This document shows, piece after piece, positions 18,402 to 39,737 of a stretch of DNA of 48,999 bases. The stretch is from Methylococcaceae bacterium (GTDB lineage: Bacteria > Pseudomonadota > Gammaproteobacteria > Methylococcales > Methylomonadaceae), in contig JABFRM010000246.1 of the NCBI GenBank assembly GCA_013141155.1, forward strand, positions 1 to 48,999, in the 5' to 3' direction. The notes beneath the pieces are model-generated. The model worked only from the letters and a program-made list of their open reading frames with translations, was not told where the DNA came from and ran no database searches. Position 1 is the first letter of the stretch, and every line of letters starts with the position of its first letter. The position numbers and the translations under genes were made by a program.

Positions 18402-18722
18402 ATGAGTACCTTAACAGCCAGTGCTGGAAATATTCAGCAAACAAAAGCCATACTGGCAAGTTATATGATCGAACTGGAGCGCTGTATTCTCAATGCGCAA
18501 TGGGAGATACTTTCTGATATTCTGGATAAGCGCCAGCACTATTTTGAGATGCTGTTTGCGGATCCTGAATTGGCTAACACCGCCGAATTTAGCGCCTTGA
18601 TTAAGCAAGTCTTTGAAGAAGACAACACCATGATTAACAAAATCATGGCGCAGAAAGCAGTTATTGAGCAGGAGCGTTTGGGTTTGATGCGAAGCCGGCA
18701 GGCGGCTAAGGCTTATGAGTAA
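18402..18722 (+). CDS. fliT: FliT-like flagellar chaperone
   Basis: A 106-residue, highly helical protein after fliS, with an AGGAG ribosome-binding site 6 bp upstream of the ATG. Sequence such as YMIELERCILNAQWEILSDI and the late IEQERLGLMRSRQAAKAY fit the small, poorly conserved FliT/FliT-like family that chaperones FliD and regulates flagellar genes. The call leans mostly on position, size and helix content. Confidence 0.75.
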   Translation: MSTLTASAGNIQQTKAILASYMIELERCILNAQWEILSDILDKRQHYFEMLFADPELANTAEFSALIKQVFEEDNTMINKIMAQKAVIEQERLGLMRSRQAAKAYE

Positions 18723-18724
18723 CT

Positions 18725-18944
18725 GATGTTACACGGATTGGTCGGAAGTCGGGCTTCAGCCCGACAATAACTCGTCCAGCCAAACGGCATCCCATAAGCA
18801 ATAATCGCCAACCCGTTTAAGCACGCTTGCCCGCAGCGGATTCGCCACAATATCGCGCCATTCTTTGCGCGTCTTCATCTTTACGCACCGCATGGCCAAG
18901 CTAATATCTCGGGTTTTGACCCGACTTCCAATCTGCGTAACATC
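18725..18944 (-). mobile_element. REP-flanked remnant of a REP-associated tyrosine transposase, copy A
   Basis: A 220-bp element with terminal inverted repeats (GATGTTAC...GTAACATC) and internal REP-like hairpins (GTCGGG...CCCGAC) at both ends. Read on the minus strand the interior encodes KEWRDIVANPLRASVLKRVG followed by DYCLWDAVWLDELLSG and a stop. This is the C-terminal signature (NPLRA...DY..WDAVWL) of RAYT/Y1-transposase-like proteins. The catalytic HUH domain is missing. A copy about 95% identical lies in the opposite orientation at 24698-24917. It separates the flagellar genes from dnaB. Confidence 0.75.
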
Positions 18945-19062
18945 AGTGCGTAAGTGTTTCTGAGCAATGAATTGCCACTACGATTGGCGATGTAGTCGGT
19001 GCATTTATCGCCCCCCTTTCAACCTTACTGCACAATACTTCAAGCGGCTATCCAGCTTCACG

Positions 19063-20493: not shown

Positions 20494-21581
20494 CACCAGC
20501 GACCTACGCGGTGCTGAATCTGGAGGCACTACAACATAATCTGGCTTGCGTACGTCAGGCAGCACCGAATGCCAAAGTCATGGCGGTCATTAAAGCCAAT
20601 GCCTATGGGCATGGCTTGTTACGCGTTGCGGCGAAATTACCCAATGTCGATGCCTTTGCCGTGGCCCGGGTTGATGAAGCAGTGCGTTTGCGGCAAGCGG
20701 GTTTTACGCAGCGTATTGCGGTATTAGAGGGCTTTACCTGTAATGAAGAATTACAGGCGTTATTGCGCTACGACATCGAGGCGGTGATTCATTGCCCTGA
20801 ACAATTGGCCATTTTAAATACCTACAGCGCAGAACAAACGCTTTCAGTTTGGCTAAAACACGATAGCGGCATGAATCGCTTAGGCTTTAAAACCGCTACA
20901 GTCCTAGCGGCTTATCAACAGCTTATGGCCTGTAAAGCCGTCAAAAAACCCTTGCAGTTAATGACACACTTAGCCAATGCCGACAACCGCCAGGATGCAA
21001 CTACTGATAAGCAAATACACTTGTTCAACCAAACCATAGCTCAATTCAGCGGCGAACGCAGCATCGCCAATTCCGCAGGCATTTTAGGTTGGACGGAGGC
21101 CTTAAGCGATTGGGTAAGACCGGGCATTATGCTCTATGGTGTTTCCCCTTTTGCAGAACAAACGGCCGCGCAACTGGGCTTAAAACCGGTGATGAGTTTG
21201 CATTCACAGTTAATTGCGGTTAAAGACATCACCATCGGTGAAAGCATTGGTTACAGTGGTCGCTGGGTGTGTGAGAAAACCACGCGCTATGGAGTGGTCG
21301 CCATTGGGTATGGCGATGGTTATCCACGTTACGCAAAAACGGGTACGCCCGTGTTAGTCAATGGTCAGCGCGTGCCGCTGATCGGGCGGGTATCTATGGA
21401 TATGATTACCGTTGACTTAGGTAGCCAACCGCACGCCAAGCCCGGCGATCCAGTGATTTTGTGGGGTAATGGCTTAGCGGTAGAAGAAATTGCTGCGTGG
21501 AGCGACACTATCCCCTATACCTTGCTCTGCGGTATTACACAGCGGGTGCAAATAGTTGAACAAGCAGAGGTTAAAGGGTAA
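20490..21581 (+). CDS. alr: Alanine racemase
   Basis: A 363-residue PLP enzyme making D-alanine for peptidoglycan. The PLP lysine lies in VMAVIKANAYGHGLLR (about 31-46). SGMNRLGF is at about 130, the YGDGYPR loop at about 277 and [12 protein letters not shown] with the catalytic-region Met/Asp at about 305. It overlaps dnaB at ATGA. Bases 21019-21547 recur identically at 24097-24625. The end differs: this copy reads RVQIVEQAEVKG, the duplicate RVQIIEQ. The 3' end here may therefore be of different origin from the 5' part. Confidence 0.96.
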   Translation: MTPATYAVLNLEALQHNLACVRQAAPNAKVMAVIKANAYGHGLLRVAAKLPNVDAFAVARVDEAVRLRQAGFTQRIAVLEGFTCNEELQALLRYDIEAVIHCPEQLAILNTYSAEQTLSVWLKHDSGMNRLGFKTATVLAAYQQLMACKAVKKPLQLMTHLANADNRQDATTDKQIHLFNQTIAQFSGERSIANSAGILGWTEALSDWVRPGIMLYGVSPFAEQTAAQLGLKPVMSLHSQLIAVKDITIGESIGYSGRWVCEKTTRYGVVAIGYGDGYPRYAKTGTPVLVNGQRVPLIGRVSMDMITVDLGSQPHAKPGDPVILWGNGLAVEEIAAWSDTIPYTLLCGITQRVQIVEQAEVKG

Positions 21582-21619: not shown

Positions 21620-22348
21620 ATGCTTGAAATAGTAGAAATTATTAGACCTGCCGATCAAGGCAGAACAACGCCTTTCCTATGCAACGCATCCGATGGCAAA
21701 GCTTATTATGTTAAAGGCTATGCCGCCTCGATTGCAGGATTAATAAAGGAGTGGTTAGGTGCGCATTTAGCAAAGGCTTTCGAGTTGCCAGTGCCGCCAT
21801 TTCAAATAGCTTTTTTGGATGATCGACTTGTTGATGGTTTTGGCGGTAAGGCTGCTTCAGAACTAAAAAGTGGTTATGTATTTGCATCTGAACAAATCCT
21901 ATCGGTCACTGAGTTAAAATATGAAACTGCAAAACAAATTGATACTCAACTGAAATTAAGGGTATTAATTTTTGATCTTTGGTTAGAGAACGAGGATCGA
22001 ACCTTATCAGAAAAAGGCGGCAATCCTAACTTACTCTGGAAAACTGATGCTTCAGGCTTGTATGTGATTGATCATAATATGATCTTTGATGACGCATTTA
22101 ATAAAACGAATTTTTGGGATACGCATGTTTTTAAATCAATGTTTGATCAAAAACAATACGATCTTTTTGAAAAAGGCGACTTTGAAACGCGAATGCAAAA
22201 ATCTCTTGCTAGTTGGCAAACAGCATGGGATAACATTCCTTCAGAATGGATTGAATTAAACAATGAACTACGGTGTTTCGATCCTGAAAAACACCTACAA
22301 CGTCTTAGCAATGAAGCAAACGGAGACATTTGGTCAAAACTACCATGA
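21620..22348 (+). CDS. HipA-like kinase domain protein (HipA_2 family)
   Basis: A 242-residue protein. It has a HipA-type catalytic loop (LIFDLWLENEDRTLSEKGGN, with N-x-D-R at about 123-126) and a metal-binding VIDHNMIFD at about 148. An N-terminal sheet region contains YYVKGY, whose Lys is a candidate ATP-binding lysine. It lacks the full-length (about 430-residue) HipA architecture. It overlaps the DUF3037 gene at ATGA, a pairing known from many genomes. It is a plausible toxin-antitoxin or defence pair, but the target is unknown. It lies directly after alr, within an apparent insertion. Confidence 0.8.
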   Translation: MLEIVEIIRPADQGRTTPFLCNASDGKAYYVKGYAASIAGLIKEWLGAHLAKAFELPVPPFQIAFLDDRLVDGFGGKAASELKSGYVFASEQILSVTELKYETAKQIDTQLKLRVLIFDLWLENEDRTLSEKGGNPNLLWKTDASGLYVIDHNMIFDDAFNKTNFWDTHVFKSMFDQKQYDLFEKGDFETRMQKSLASWQTAWDNIPSEWIELNNELRCFDPEKHLQRLSNEANGDIWSKLP

Positions 22349-23157
22349 ATAAACAAATTTGTAAGTACAGCATTATTCGCTTTCAGCCTTATCCTGAAAC
22401 AGAAGAGTTTGCCAATATAGGTATTGTGCTTTATGCCACTACCTCTAAGCAACTGGAGTTTAGGTTGTTAGAGAGTAAACAGCATGCAAGAATCACTGGT
22501 TTTTTTGATCCCATTTGCAAAGCGGTTTTTGTACAAACGACCAAAATTATTCGGGCAGAAATTGAACGGATTAAGCAGCTTTTAACCCTGACCACTGGAA
22601 CTGATGTCGATCTTTATGGAGAATTAATTCGCCGTCGGGAAGATATTATTCGTTTTAGTGAAAACCGGGTGTTGTTTTCTCTTGATCCCGTGGCGACGGT
22701 TGATAAGCTGTTTGAACATTATGTGTATCGTAGCTTTATCCATGAACCTGGTCATGAAGATAAAATGAAAAAGCAAGTGCGTGGCTTGCTTGATCGTTGT
22801 AATCTTAGCGAAAAATATAAAGAAGGCACAATTGGCGAACCTGCTAAATACGAAGTTAAATTTCCTTTTGTGTCCAATATCAGTAAGCGAAAGATTATTA
22901 AGCCCATTCATTTTAAGCATGAGCAACCTAGTCAACTGATTGATCATGGGCTTGAGTGGCTTGCAAAAATTCAGCAATTGGAAAAGTATACGTTTATCAA
23001 ACCTGATGAAGTTTTGTTTGCCTATGATGCCCCTGATAACCTTCAAAGCGATTTATTTAGTGCGTTTAATGAAATTAAAGCGCAAATTAAAAATGAAGGC
23101 GTGGTGATGGCAGATATAAAAAACAACGATGATATTATTAGATTTGCAGACGTATAA
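22345..23157 (+). CDS. DUF3037 domain protein, partner of the HipA-like kinase
   Basis: A 270-residue protein. The N-terminal DUF3037 core reads YSIIRFQPYPETEEFANIGI then VLYATTS, and EIERIKQL follows at about 73. The ATG at 22345 overlaps the kinase stop (ATGA). The in-frame TTG at 22330 is rejected because it lies inside the kinase and lacks conservation. DUF3037 has no assigned activity. Genetic coupling to HipA-like kinases is conserved across bacteria, so it may be an inhibitor, substrate or scaffold for the kinase. Confidence 0.82.
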   Translation: MNKQICKYSIIRFQPYPETEEFANIGIVLYATTSKQLEFRLLESKQHARITGFFDPICKAVFVQTTKIIRAEIERIKQLLTLTTGTDVDLYGELIRRREDIIRFSENRVLFSLDPVATVDKLFEHYVYRSFIHEPGHEDKMKKQVRGLLDRCNLSEKYKEGTIGEPAKYEVKFPFVSNISKRKIIKPIHFKHEQPSQLIDHGLEWLAKIQQLEKYTFIKPDEVLFAYDAPDNLQSDLFSAFNEIKAQIKNEGVVMADIKNNDDIIRFADV

Positions 23158-23168
23158 CGGAGGCAATC

Positions 23169-23762
23169 ATGGGCTTAGCCTTAAAAGACAGCCAAACCTA
23201 CACTTACGCTGATTATTTAACTTGGTCGGACGATGCTCGTTATGAGTTAATTGACGGTCATGCGTATTACATGGCACCTGCGCCAGATTTGACGCATCAA
23301 GATATAGCGGGTGAAATCTTTCGGCAAGTGGCTAATAGCTTAAAGGGTAAAAAATGTCGTGCGTTCATTGCCCCTGTAGATGTTCGTTTATCTGATTCAA
23401 ATCAAGACAATGCGAATATCATTAATGTTGTGCAACCCGATGTGTTTGTGGTTTGTGACCCGAACAAGTTCACGCGACGCGGTATTCTTGGCGCGCCAGA
23501 TTGGATTGTGGAAGTGTTATCACCCTCAACTGCCGGTCATGACCAAATTATCAAGCGGCAATTGTATGAACATCACGGAGTACGCGAATACTGGCTGGTA
23601 CATCCCACTGACCGGGTATTGACGGTGTATCGGTTGGAAAATGGTGAATATGGCAAACCCGAACTGTATGAATTAATCGGTGCAACGCCGATTGGTGCAT
23701 TGCCTGGGTGCGTTATTCAGTGGGATGAGTTGGTTGCCAGTCTTCCAAATGATTACGAATAA
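23169..23762 (+). CDS. Uma2 family (DUF820) putative endonuclease
   Basis: A 197-residue PD-(D/E)XK-fold protein. The fold residues are visible as PDVFVVCDPNK (Asp), DWIVEVLSPSTAGHD (Glu and following LSP), IIKRQLYEHHGVREYWLVHP (Lys and EYW) and a C-terminal VIQWDEL. A strong GGAGG ribosome-binding site lies 7 bp upstream. It is 11 bp after the DUF3037 gene, so the three genes look like one operon. Uma2 proteins are frequent accessory genes of unproven function, abundant in cyanobacteria and present in methanotrophs. Confidence 0.85.
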   Translation: MGLALKDSQTYTYADYLTWSDDARYELIDGHAYYMAPAPDLTHQDIAGEIFRQVANSLKGKKCRAFIAPVDVRLSDSNQDNANIINVVQPDVFVVCDPNKFTRRGILGAPDWIVEVLSPSTAGHDQIIKRQLYEHHGVREYWLVHPTDRVLTVYRLENGEYGKPELYELIGATPIGALPGCVIQWDELVASLPNDYE

Positions 23763-24096
23763 ATAATGCGCTGTGTCAGTGCGAAACTTGGCAATTACGT
23801 GTCAAGTTCCGCATGATCCTATACAGATTCAACTCACGGTTGAAATTCCAGAAGCGAATGCCAATTCTTTATTACAGTCCGCTTTTTAACCTCAAGGACG
23901 CAAACTATCGGTGGTTCTTAGCCAATAGCGAAAATTTAGCCACAGGCTTAAGTCTGTAGGGATTGAAGCGTGATACATCGCTAATGCCATCATGCTCTTG
24001 TAAATCAGCCCCTTAAACCTACATTAGGGTAAACGATCCCTGATTTTCACTGCGACCGCACCAGAATAATATTAGGAATTGAGGTAAAGGCTATCG
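23763..24096. other. Gene-poor junction between Uma2 and the truncated alr
   Basis: No complete gene is seen. A short frame without a start codon (about 23767-23889, containing HDPIQIQLTVEIPEANANSL and a stop) may be the tail of a broken gene. TGTCAAGTTCCGCAT at 23800-23814 recurs at 24663-24677, with similar bases beyond (ATCCTATAC versus ATCACATAC). The pair flanks the duplicated alr fragment as direct repeats. Confidence 0.4.
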
Positions 24097-24644
24097 ACTT
24101 GTTCAACCAAACCATAGCTCAATTCAGCGGCGAACGCAGCATCGCCAATTCCGCAGGCATTTTAGGTTGGACGGAGGCCTTAAGCGATTGGGTAAGACCG
24201 GGCATTATGCTCTATGGTGTTTCCCCTTTTGCAGAACAAACGGCCGCGCAACTGGGCTTAAAACCGGTGATGAGTTTGCATTCACAGTTAATTGCGGTTA
24301 AAGACATCACCATCGGTGAAAGCATTGGTTACAGTGGTCGCTGGGTGTGTGAGAAAACCACGCGCTATGGAGTGGTCGCCATTGGGTATGGCGATGGTTA
24401 TCCACGTTACGCAAAAACGGGTACGCCCGTGTTAGTCAATGGTCAGCGCGTGCCGCTGATCGGGCGGGTATCTATGGATATGATTACCGTTGACTTAGGT
24501 AGCCAACCGCACGCCAAGCCCGGCGATCCAGTGATTTTGTGGGGTAATGGCTTAGCGGTAGAAGAAATTGCTGCGTGGAGCGACACTATCCCCTATACCT
24601 TGCTCTGCGGTATTACACAGCGGGTACAGATTATTGAGCAATAA
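24097..24644 (+). pseudogene. 5'-truncated alr duplicate
   Basis: Bases 24097-24625 are identical, as far as I can compare by eye, to 21019-21547 of the full alr. The fragment covers the C-terminal half (about residues 178-352) and then diverges to end RVQIIEQ-stop. The PLP lysine segment is missing, so no racemase activity is expected. It could be the native 3' end of alr left behind when the DNA at 21548-24096 entered, or a later duplication. A TTG at 24099 keeps the frame open, but there is no reason to expect translation. Confidence 0.92.
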
Positions 24645-24697
24645 GTGACCGGATAGCTAGATTGTCAAGTTCCGCATAATCACATACTGATTTAGCT

Positions 24698-24917
24698 GAT
24701 GTTACGCAGATTGGAAGTCGGGTTTTAACCCGACATATTAGCTTGACCATGCGGTGCGTAAAGATGAAAACGTGCAAAGAATGGCGCGATATTATGGCGA
24801 ATCCGCTGCGGGCAAGCGTGCTTAAACGGGTTGGCGATTATTGCTTATGGGATGCCGTTTGGCTGGGCGAGTTACTGTCGGGCTAAAATCCGACTTCCGA
24901 CCAATCCGCGTAACATC
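24698..24917 (+). mobile_element. REP-flanked remnant of a REP-associated tyrosine transposase, copy B
   Basis: The inverted partner of 18725-18944, same length (220 bp) and about 95% identical by eye. Ends are GATGTTACGCAGATTGGAAG and the reverse complement-like tail, with GTCGGGTTTTAACCCGAC as a near-perfect REP hairpin at 24717-24734. The plus-strand interior encodes KEWRDIMANPLRASVLKRVG then DYCLWDAVWLGELLSG-stop, the RAYT C-terminal signature. It lies between the alr fragment and mch. Confidence 0.75.
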
Positions 24918-24952
24918 AGATATTAAATCCCCACCCAAAACCATACCCCTAT

Positions 24953-25936
24953 TTAAAGTCCAAAAGATTGATCTAACAAAGCGTTATCTAATTGACCCGC
25001 ACGGAAACTTTTACCGGATTCAACAGCGGTTACGATCACGCTGGCGGGGCTAAACAACAACGGATCAATCTTAAAGAAATCATACTCGACCGCTTTAAAA
25101 ATCTCAGCAAAGGGTTTGCCATAGTCTTTAGAGGTTGAACTTGGCAATGCTTTTGCTAACTGTTCAGCATCAGTATCACTGCCTTTCACGAACAAATGCA
25201 CCTGTCCTGCAAATAAAATGGCATCATTGGTACGTCCCATCGCCTTAACGAATTTGGGATGTGGCGGACAAATCGGTGCGCTGCCACTACCGTCGATAAT
25301 ATTTTCCAGCGGAAAATGCAGGGCATGCGCTTTGTGCATAGCCACTTCCAACACTCTCGACACCACTTGTACGCCACCTGCCAAGCTGCTAGTGGGTGTG
25401 ACGATAATGGTTAAACTGGAGGGATCGACTTGGCAAGCGATGGCAACTTTTTCGACAATTTCGATAGGCGGTATCGCATCATTTTCAATCACCAATACCG
25501 TGCTATCGGCGCTGTCTTGATAAGCCAGTTCTTTATACAGTTCTTCAACAGGTTCCCGTTGACCTTCTTTCACTTTGCTTGCCATAGCGCGTGCAGGGCC
25601 TGAGCCTAAGGCGTAATATTTCTCGTGCGACAAGCTCCAACCCGCATATTGACTGCCTAAGCACGCTAACACTGGGTTGCCGGTATGCACCGTGACAGAT
25701 AATGGCCAATGTTCAGTATAAGTTGAATGTGTAATTGTCACCGTCCCCATTCCCCCTAAACATATTTCCGCAATAATCCGTCCTGCCTCAAGACCACCCG
25801 GCACGTTAATGCCAGCATCGACAATCGTGCAGCCATTGGGCAACCGGTCTATGCCCACTCTTAATTTATCGGCTTGTGCAACGAGCTGTTGCACTAACGG
25901 TTGAGATAATTTATTAACGCTTGCTGTATATCGCAT
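24953..25936 (-). CDS. mch: Methenyltetrahydromethanopterin cyclohydrolase
   Basis: A 327-residue enzyme of the H4MPT-linked C1 pathway. It hydrolyses methenyl-H4MPT to formyl-H4MPT during formaldehyde oxidation in the cytoplasm. Family blocks include [79 protein letters not shown] and [20 protein letters not shown]. The ATG at 25936 is preferred over the TTG at 25945, which overlaps the upstream stop. It is the distal gene of a minus-strand unit with the ATP-grasp gene. Its presence is the best sign that the host is a methylotroph. Confidence 0.97.
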
Positions 25937-25941
25937 GAGAA

Positions 25942-27096
25942 TCAAACACCTTGATCAAGTTTATAAAGTAACCATTGCTGGCGGGTATGCAGCTTTTCCC
26001 TAAGGCGCCGCACACCGGAATCATCGGCAATAATACTGCAAATTGGCTGCGTTGTGCCAATTATTGCACCCGCTTTAGGTAAATCCCTACACCAATCGGG
26101 CCAAGTAAATTGCTCAGGAATACGCGTCGTCTGCTGCGCATAAACCAGTTGATAGCCGCTATAACCTTGACCTGGCAGCAATGTTAGCGCCGGTTTAACA
26201 AAATCCTGAAAAATCACCTGAGCGGCAACTACATCAGTGGCACAGGCTTGAATATGCTTGAACAGCCAAGTAGCTGAATATAACTGCATACTGGCAGAGG
26301 GTCTGGGATTAATTTCCAATACATAAATATCCTTACCCGACATTATAAAATCTAAACAATTCAAACCTTTCAGGTTAAAAGCCCCAACTAACTTACACAA
26401 CCAAGCTGTCATTAATGCGGCTTGCTTACTCGAAACAACCGCACCAGTCATAATCCCAGAAAATAAAAACGGCTGATTTTCACCCCCATCAACCGTCCAT
26501 TGCGTATTAAATCCAATAACCTGCACCTCGCCCTTATCCGCTAAAAACAACACAGATTGTTGCGCCCCAGGCTGATATTTTTGCCAGTACACGGATCCAG
26601 CCGCTTTAAATTGCCCCAAACCAGATTTCGACCGATAACGTTTAATGCCGACCCCCCCCTGCCCTCGCATCGGCTTAATTAACCACGTATTTAAGCTATG
26701 GTCAGGTGCTTGAAATGCAACGTCAGGATGTGCAATAGCCAAAGCATCCAGCCGCTTAAAAAAAGCGGCTTTGTTAAGCAGTCCAACAAATACCACCGGA
26801 TCATTACCTAACAGTATTAGACGTTCCGCCAAATAGTCCAGACTTTCTGGGTAATATTCCAAGCCGCTGCCATATATAACCCATTTAACCCCATACTGTC
26901 GTATAACCTCTTCAACAGCGGGGATTAGTTGCATTTTCGCGAGAGAAGTTATTTGATAACAGCTTTCGGCATACTGTTGGGTATCCAGATCTGCGTAACA
27001 ATCAATCACCAAAGGCTTTAATCCAATGGCTTGTGCCGCCTGCGCCAACATTCTGCCGGAGCTGGCAACAATCAAAACCGCATTAACAAAGGGCAT
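25942..27096 (-). CDS. ATP-grasp protein linked to mch
   Basis: A 384-residue protein with an N-terminal pre-ATP-grasp region ([20 protein letters not shown]). The ATP-grasp domain (about 110-320) shows [19 protein letters not shown] (phosphate-binding loop) and [18 protein letters not shown] (metal-binding E-I-N-P-R). Such genes sit in the H4MPT gene clusters of methylotrophs and have been linked to methanopterin cofactor biosynthesis. The exact ligase reaction is not established from sequence. Its stop lies just before the mch start, which indicates translational coupling. Confidence 0.88.
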
Positions 27097-38528: not shown

Positions 38529-38942
38529 TTAAACTTTAGTGAAACTATTTGGAGATCTAACGGAAGGTTTTAATTTGAGCTTAACAGCAAGCTTTTCAAA
38601 TTTTTTATCAAAGCTTGCTAAACCAGTACAATCAACCGTAGCGCTATGATGTAAAGCATCTGCAAAATCAAATCCTTGTGCATAATGTTTTAGCGCTTGC
38701 TCAATATTCGCCTGACGTTCAAAGCTGATGTTTCTAATAGACAACAAATGCTCAAATGTACGTAAAACTGCCGCCACGTCTAAACGATAAGCACCCCGCA
38801 ACACCCATTCCAACTCCAGCATGACCGTGAGTGGCACAAACAAAGCCACACCACTGTCTATTAAATTGGCTGCTTCTTTCGCTTGCACCTTATCGTCATT
38901 AACGACTAGCCTTGCCAGCACGTTGGTATCTAAAGCGATCAC
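38529..38942 (-). CDS. PIN-domain toxin (VapC-like)
   Basis: A 137-residue PIN-domain ribonuclease, the toxin half of a type II module. Acidic metal-binding positions are visible: Asp5 (MIALDTNVLARLV), Glu44-46 region (MLELEWVLRG), Asp in FADALHHSAT, and Asp in ASFDKKF. The start codon is GTG, 16 bp after the antitoxin stop, with AGGTGA before it. Its antitoxin partner is the AbrB-type gene upstream (38959-39195). All catalytic residues appear intact, so it could be active. Confidence 0.9.
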   Translation of the reverse strand: MIALDTNVLARLVVNDDKVQAKEAANLIDSGVALFVPLTVMLELEWVLRGAYRLDVAAVLRTFEHLLSIRNISFERQANIEQALKHYAQGFDFADALHHSATVDCTGLASFDKKFEKLAVKLKLKPSVRSPNSFTKV

Positions 38943-39304
38943 CGTGTATGATCACCTATCATTTGGTTGCATAGAGCGCTGCGTCCATAGCTTCAATGGA
39001 TACCCGCTCACCTTGATAACCAGCAATACCAATGCAGTCAATAGCACGTTTAGTTTTACGAACATCATCAACCAACACTTTAAAACCGCCAGGCTCAGGA
39101 ATAATATCAAGACGCGTTCCAGCGGTAATACCCAAACTTCGCCTAAGCTGCGCAGGAATCACCAATTGACCTTTTTCTGATACGGTAATAATCATAATTC
39201 GACCATTCTTATCCAATAAACTAAAGCTGCATCTTATCATAATAACTTACCTATGTAAGTCGCATTATGAGGCATATTTAAAAGGGCCTGACTCCTTTAT
39301 TTTA
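38890..39304. repeat. 415-bp direct repeat, copy 1
   Basis: This stretch matches 40064-40478 with a constant offset of 1174. It spans the vapC start, the whole AbrB gene, its promoter and the AAAGGG-type palindrome. The two copies flank the second vapBC pair. Confidence 0.88.
38959..39195 (-). CDS. AbrB/MazE-type antitoxin, copy 1
   Basis: A 78-residue swapped-hairpin DNA-binding protein. The beginning MIITVSEKGQLVIPAQLRRS and LGITAGTRLDII are the AbrB core. The C-terminal tail (about 45-78) should bind the PIN toxin. I chose the ATG at 39195 because homologues start at this strand. An ATG at 39240 has an upstream AGGTAAG and would add 15 residues. It is paired with the toxin gene 38529-38942. 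A second copy, differing at about five residues, lies at 40133-40369. Confidence 0.9.
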   Translation of the reverse strand: MIITVSEKGQLVIPAQLRRSLGITAGTRLDIIPEPGGFKVLVDDVRKTKRAIDCIGIAGYQGERVSIEAMDAALYATK

Positions 39305-39332
39305 AAAAAAATCTGATCCCTTTCTGGTTTTT

Positions 39333-39737
39333 TTAAGCTAATTTCACCCAATTTTCAACGTTTAATTCAGGATAACCGCAAAAGTCATCCACATTATTCG
39401 TAACCAGAATTAAACTTCTGCTAACGGCATGAGCAGCAATCAAGCGGTCTAACGCATCACGTTTGCGGTCACGCATGACAGCCCGAACAATGCCATAACT
39501 AACACAAGCATCCTCAGCAAACGGCAATACCGGAATATCGATAATTAAATTTTTCAAAGCCAAATCTGCCGTCTCCCGTTCGGATGGGTTACGCTCCACG
39601 CCGTAACGCAGCTCAGCATAAGTGATGGCAGACATCACTACATCACCACGGCGTAAACTATGAAAACGTAGCAATACCTCAGGTGGGTGATGCTTAATCA
39701 GATAAATACAAATATTTGTATCCAGCATATAACGCAT
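39333..39737 (-). CDS. vapC: VapC-family PIN toxin (second system)
   Basis: A 134-residue PIN nuclease of the VapC group. MRYMLDTNICIYLIKHHP carries the first Asp, SAITYAELRYGVERNP the Glu, RDALDRLIAAHA the third acidic residue and LVTNNVDDF the last. It is a likely tRNA or rRNA endonuclease. It lies 3 bp after vapB, a typical operon. The pair sits between two copies of the AbrB module and is not similar to the first VapC. Confidence 0.93.
   Translation of the reverse strand: MRYMLDTNICIYLIKHHPPEVLLRFHSLRRGDVVMSAITYAELRYGVERNPSERETADLALKNLIIDIPVLPFAEDACVSYGIVRAVMRDRKRDALDRLIAAHAVSRSLILVTNNVDDFCGYPELNVENWVKLA

Follow-up and report, generated by a model that had tools for sequence, protein, structure and literature searches.

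A HipA-like kinase gene coupled to a DUF3037 gene in a methanotroph: a probable HipA/HipD (PDC-M66, DS-6) defence module

Phage defence by a HipA-like kinase paired with a DUF3037 protein has been described in two independent papers. Within the Retron-Sda1 operon, such a pair defends against phage Bas51 while the retron parts are dispensable; deletion of the kinase abolishes defence and deletion of the DUF3037 protein is toxic (PMC12548924). The DS-6 system of E. coli, renamed HipAD, has the same architecture and was validated, and a mutant in a catalytic residue no longer defends; a complex of kinase, partner and DNA was predicted, and the second domain of DS-6B was labelled DUF1829 (PMC13092281). 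HipAD of E. coli is attributed to Brenes & Laub 2025 (cited in PMC13092281; DefensePredictor 2026).

Here, we compare with these systems a gene pair from a Methylococcaceae bacterium, located in a stretch of 48,999 nucleotides that was analysed as a whole (the window). An earlier note on this DNA had taken the pair, together with the Uma2 gene that follows it, for a possible toxin-antitoxin or phage-defence operon, and knew of no established function for HipA-like/DUF3037 pairs. The latter statement is overtaken by the homologues that were shown to defend (PMC12548924, PMC13092281). The former holds for the kinase and its DUF3037 partner, given these homologues and the match to PDC-M66 reported below, and does not hold for Uma2.

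Identity of the kinase/DUF3037 pair

The two genes at 21620-23157 (Table 1) very probably form a two-gene HipA/HipD (PDC-M66, DS-6) toxin-antitoxin defence module, with the kinase as toxin and the DUF3037 protein as antitoxin. This assignment is based on direct comparisons of the proteins and not on their names. The kinase and its partner are 36% (over 214 aa) and 28% (over 263 aa, or 269 columns) identical to the 'HipA toxin' and the 'HipD antitoxin' of Escherichia phage PhiR5_1, respectively, and the phage pair has the same gene order and the same ATGA overlap. In the window, the kinase stop and the partner start overlap in the ATGA at 22345-22348, exactly as the translational coupling had been noted before. 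Both models of the PADLOC candidate PDC-M66 are matched at moderate scores, PDC-M66A by the kinase (4e-11) and PDC-M66B by the partner (2e-20), and no difference between this candidate and the window pair is evident. The partner also covers the complete Pfam DUF3037 model (positions 1-118 of 118, E = 3e-19). An NCBIfam search with the kinase, the DUF3037 protein and Uma2 gave a match for none of the three.

Table 1. Features of the kinase/DUF3037 locus and its surroundings (positions in the window)
Feature	Position	Strand	Remark
Repeat copy 1, 3' half of intact alr	21019..21547	+	529-bp perfect direct repeat
HipA_2 kinase, probable HipA (toxin) component	21620..22348	+	242-aa ORF
Predicted catalytic Asp126 of N-x-D-R	21995..21997	+	invariant, 42 sequences
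Predicted metal-binding Asp151 of I-D-H-N	22070..22072	+	invariant, 42 sequences
DUF3037 protein, probable HipD (antitoxin) component	22345..23157	+	270 aa from ATG
DUF3037 domain, residues 1-128, putative neutralising module	22345..22728	+	kept in relatives with intact kinase
Partner C-terminal domain (residues 133-270); fold predicted as PD-(D/E)XK-like, catalytic acids missing	22741..23154	+	AF2, VIA-align
Uma2-family gene, adjacent but not counted as a component	23169..23762	+	197 aa; Pfam Uma2, E = 2e-35
yigZ/IMPACT-family remnant, start and end only	23766..23891	+	intact after Uma2 in G002
Repeat copy 2, truncated alr fragment behind the insert, with the ancestral type of gene end	24097..24625	+	

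Although the kinase had been described as only 242 residues long, it is not shortened, as this is the full length for HipA_2 (positions 1-239 of the 240 of the Pfam model, E = 3e-75). The N-x-D-R motif (N124, D126 and R127) and the I-D-H site (D151 and H152) are kept, as had been pointed out, and these five residues are invariant together with K32 in an alignment of 42 rows of relatives. Searches of the solved structures with sequence profiles yielded nothing meaningful for the kinase (a single match, E = 0.22) and no relative for the partner, so only fold comparison was informative. The AF2 model of the kinase (pLDDT 93.6) resembles CtkA (VIA Z 13.8), PI4K II (13.2), the HipA of Shewanella oneidensis (12.2) and Legionella HipT (11.5), with values of 10.1-12.2 for the HipA proteins of E. 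coli and Shewanella. In these model comparisons, the kinase aligns with HipA starting only at about residue 145-151.

Like HipAD/DS-6, the window pair comprises a HipA-like kinase without HipB that is followed by a two-domain DUF3037 protein. Unlike those relatives, to which it is 28-36% identical, it is located on the chromosome of a methanotroph, between alr and Uma2, and not in a prophage. The pair in Retron-Sda1 has the same two domains and acts as a stand-alone defence unit, whereas neither a reverse transcriptase nor a retron RNA was identified at the window pair. With HipBA of E. coli and Shewanella, the window kinase has its fold and catalytic motif in common; the antitoxin of HipBA is the HTH protein HipB instead of a DUF3037 protein, and HipA carries an N-terminal region of some 145 residues that the window kinase lacks. 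Membership in HipBA was rejected on these grounds, as alr lies upstream, the DUF3037 gene downstream, and neither a HipB gene nor such an N-terminal region is present. HipBST also comprises a short kinase without the N-terminal subdomain (see HipT above), but the window system consists of two genes, with no HipS and no HipB. It was rejected as well, since the interval between alr and the kinase holds no small ORF for HipS. This interval measures 38 bp, and no promoter of the pair's own is evident, so that its expression is uncertain.

Recurrence, neighbourhood and horizontal origin

Two collection scans using a kinase alignment yielded 160 related loci. A DUF3037 protein lies directly downstream of the kinase in 159 of them, the exception (L189) being situated at a contig edge. 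In an even sample of the class (369 genomes), the kinase occurs in all seven genomes with a long DUF3037 protein, while four further genomes contain only distant kinases, of the type that adjoins DUF3037 proteins of about 130-140 aa. Among the near relatives, Methylobacter and Methylovulum are those with names. At another locus (L268 728-2354, contig 108, region of L059), a congener (G002) encodes a divergent HipA_2 kinase and, behind it, a DUF3037-like protein.

A gene-neighbourhood survey, as proposed in the earlier note, finds the relatives enriched near defence genes. The 150 neighbour proteins of related pairs match 328 PADLOC models versus 9 for 120 control proteins drawn from related genomes at arbitrary positions, where both numbers count models and not distinct proteins, and the loci are not all independent. 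One model of a type I methyltransferase is matched by up to 10 and type I specificity models by up to 8 of the 150 neighbour proteins, against none of the 120 controls; indeed, no restriction system was matched in PADLOC among these control proteins. In five loci (L259, L048, L128, L139 and L149), genes that look like those of a type I restriction methyltransferase and a specificity subunit precede the pair, so that it looks embedded in the restriction operon. The window does not form a defence island of its own; beside the pair, PADLOC gives only matches of weak specificity there, and no further clear defence system was found. Two PIN-domain genes, possibly encoding VapC-type toxins, are located at 38532-39737 on the minus strand.

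Both genes of the pair are poor in GC (37.9% for the kinase and 37.1% for the partner, compared to 50% for alr and 45.5% for Uma2). In addition, the pairs of two other genera of the family are 76-78% (kinase) and 74-77% (partner) identical to those of the window, whereas alr of these genera is only 65-68% identical and located elsewhere. Low GC content and a cross-genus identity above that of alr point to horizontal acquisition of the pair, which lies between housekeeping genes. The earlier description of an acquired insert thus holds for the kinase and its partner and not for Uma2, which adjoins alr in G002. Such horizontal movement, a location among housekeeping genes and the decayed copies of the pair within the same family are also what speaks for a plain toxin-antitoxin system for stress or stabilisation, i.e., a selfish addiction module with no role in phage defence in its host. 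We consider this improbable in view of the phage defence by homologues in both papers (PMC12548924, PMC13092281) and of the relatives that are embedded among restriction-modification genes and that also occur in phages and prophages.

The Uma2 gene and the rearranged surroundings

The earlier note had linked the pair to Uma2 as a nuclease. The 11-bp gap between the partner and Uma2 on the same strand is exactly as described there, and the Uma2 protein itself matches a PADLOC single-gene candidate (PDC-S03), which would both fit a three-gene system with Uma2, a PD-(D/E)XK nuclease, as the effector and the kinase/DUF3037 pair as its regulator. This is extremely improbable: a Uma2 profile found no Uma2 gene in the flanks of any of the 160 related pairs, while its positive control, the Uma2 of G002, was recovered (6e-67). 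All 11 Uma2 proteins of the source genome went into the profile, which a very divergent Uma2 could escape. Moreover, the gene order in G002 is dnaB-alr-Uma2-yigZ, without the kinase pair, and Uma2 has diverged between the window and G002 to the same extent as its neighbours (80% protein identity, compared to 80% for alr and 79% for yigZ, the latter using the copy from another contig of the source genome; dnaB is 95% identical). Finally, the GC content of Uma2 sets it apart from the 37-38% of the pair. Uma2 was therefore rejected as a third component and is an older, unrelated neighbour, a bystander of the pair. In the simplest reading, Uma2 was already located beside alr and the pair was inserted between them, or G002 lost the pair.

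The surroundings of the pair are rearranged. The 3' half of alr is repeated downstream of Uma2, and the two copies are identical at all 529 bases and bound a 3,078-bp segment that carries the pair; an exact repeat of this length in an assembly of 354 contigs could also stem from a tandem array, from a circle or from a mixture of strains. If the copies recombined, the 3,078-bp segment would either be lost, with an intact alr left behind, or be amplified. The intact alr ends in ...QIVEQAEVKG and the downstream fragment in ...QIIEQ, like alr of G002, so the fragment keeps the ancestral-type end. An intact yigZ is present on another contig of the source genome (C283; L087 2900-3460), preceded by a few bases that resemble the end of Uma2, which is a sign of an old rearrangement. 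The truncated alr copy and the yigZ remnant, along with broken copies of the pair in several relatives of the same family, could indicate that the pair is itself a decaying, non-functional remnant that a rearrangement left behind between the two alr copies. Both ORFs are nevertheless full length, free of stops and in possession of every invariant residue, which makes this highly improbable.

Several smaller repeats were observed in the same region. A MITE-like repeat, about 235 bp long and inverted at its ends, occurs at 24690-24927 and 18720-18946, and some 20 or more copies of it are present in the genome at 85-96% identity. The two copies in the window are oppositely oriented and flank the segment that comprises dnaB, alr, the pair and the alr fragment. 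A short repeat, TGTCAAGTTCCGCATRATC, is found at 23800-23818 and 24663-24681. At up to two mismatches, it occurs at seven places in the genome and at none in the control. Its copy at 23800 forms an inverted repeat with the preceding bases and is possibly a transposon end. A methanopterin cyclohydrolase gene lies further downstream at 24956-25945; together with the named relatives, it marks the host as a methanotroph from the group of Methylobacter and Methylovulum.

Domains of the partner and the proposed mechanism

The AF2 model of the partner (pLDDT 88.4, pTM 0.54) consists of two domains that are joined by a low-confidence linker at residues 130-135. Its C-terminal domain, in which the elements are ordered alpha-beta-beta-beta-alpha-beta, is most similar in VIA-align to BstEII (Z 9.5), Cdn1 (9.0), BsoBI (8.3), Can2 (8.3), Card1 (8.0) and PspGI (7.9), values that barely exceed the usual background of 7-8, so that the argument lies in the agreement of the fold class. 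Thirteen of the 14 best rows (Z 7.5-9.5) are structures that we take, from their titles and general knowledge, to be restriction-endonuclease-like. The C-terminal half of the partner is thus predicted to have a PD-(D/E)XK nuclease-like fold. The catalytic (D/E)xK signature is missing: K186 is found in 41 of the 42 aligned rows, yet position 184 is acidic in none, and nuclease activity of this domain is therefore unlikely. The C-terminal domain aligns with that of the phage HipD, and a Pfam search for DUF1829 recovered this domain neither in the window partner nor in the phage HipD.

Naturally broken copies suggest which part of the partner matters for the kinase. Both genes are full in 148 of the 160 loci, and four loci are cut by contig ends. 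A broken kinase next to an intact partner occurs in three loci (L097, L107 and L124), and an intact kinase next to a partner that is damaged solely beyond the DUF3037 domain in five (L122, L125, L187, L204 and L227). In L122, an aldo/keto reductase gene has taken the place of the C-terminal domain. One genome in addition to the 160 loci (G866, L299) likewise combines an intact kinase with damage beyond the DUF3037 domain. Conversely, among the relatives not cut by a contig end, damage to the DUF3037 domain was never encountered beside an intact kinase. All six breaks lie beyond position 134 of the 277 of the model, for which our own, post hoc arithmetic gives a chance of about 0.02 if breaks were evenly spread; the breaks in L125, L187 and L204 may in part be sequencing errors or assembly joins. 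The plain test of whether the toxin is broken more often than the antitoxin is not clean (3 versus 5 among the 160 loci), and the pattern emerged only after the partner had been divided into domains, a division that was made post hoc.

As six relatives have an intact kinase beside a partner with a damaged C-terminus, the whole partner is not always needed. In a separate lineage (L065-L073), the HipA_2 kinase measures about 257 aa, retains N-x-D-R and I-D-H, and stands next to a free-standing DUF3037 protein of about 130-140 aa. Together, the pattern of breaks and this family of short partners suggest that neutralisation is the task of the DUF3037 domain within the partner. New here are the predicted pseudo-nuclease fold at its C-terminus and the consistent retention of the DUF3037 domain beside an intact kinase.

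For the window copy, we infer the activity, the trigger and the target as well as the roles of the two partner domains, which may be pictured as follows. The co-translated DUF3037 protein would keep the kinase inactive through direct binding, presumably by means of its N-terminal DUF3037 domain, while the C-terminal PD-(D/E)XK-like pseudo-nuclease domain may bind DNA or otherwise regulate or sense. Phage infection would disturb the complex and free the kinase, which would then phosphorylate an essential substrate and stop growth before phage release. In a more speculative and, in our view, rather doubtful version, locking the kinase would take no more than the DUF3037 domain, and the C-terminal half, a catalytically dead restriction-endonuclease fold, would free the toxin on recognising the operator or DNA that is damaged or of phage origin. 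If true, the infection detector of a kinase toxin would be a dead nuclease.

As a probable HipA/HipD module, the pair extends to a methanotroph a defence family that was validated only in 2025-2026, and Uma2 is removed from the picture. It also provides a directly testable idea on how the partner works, namely that the kinase is neutralised by the DUF3037 domain, while sensing or regulation would fall to the dead PD-(D/E)XK-like domain.
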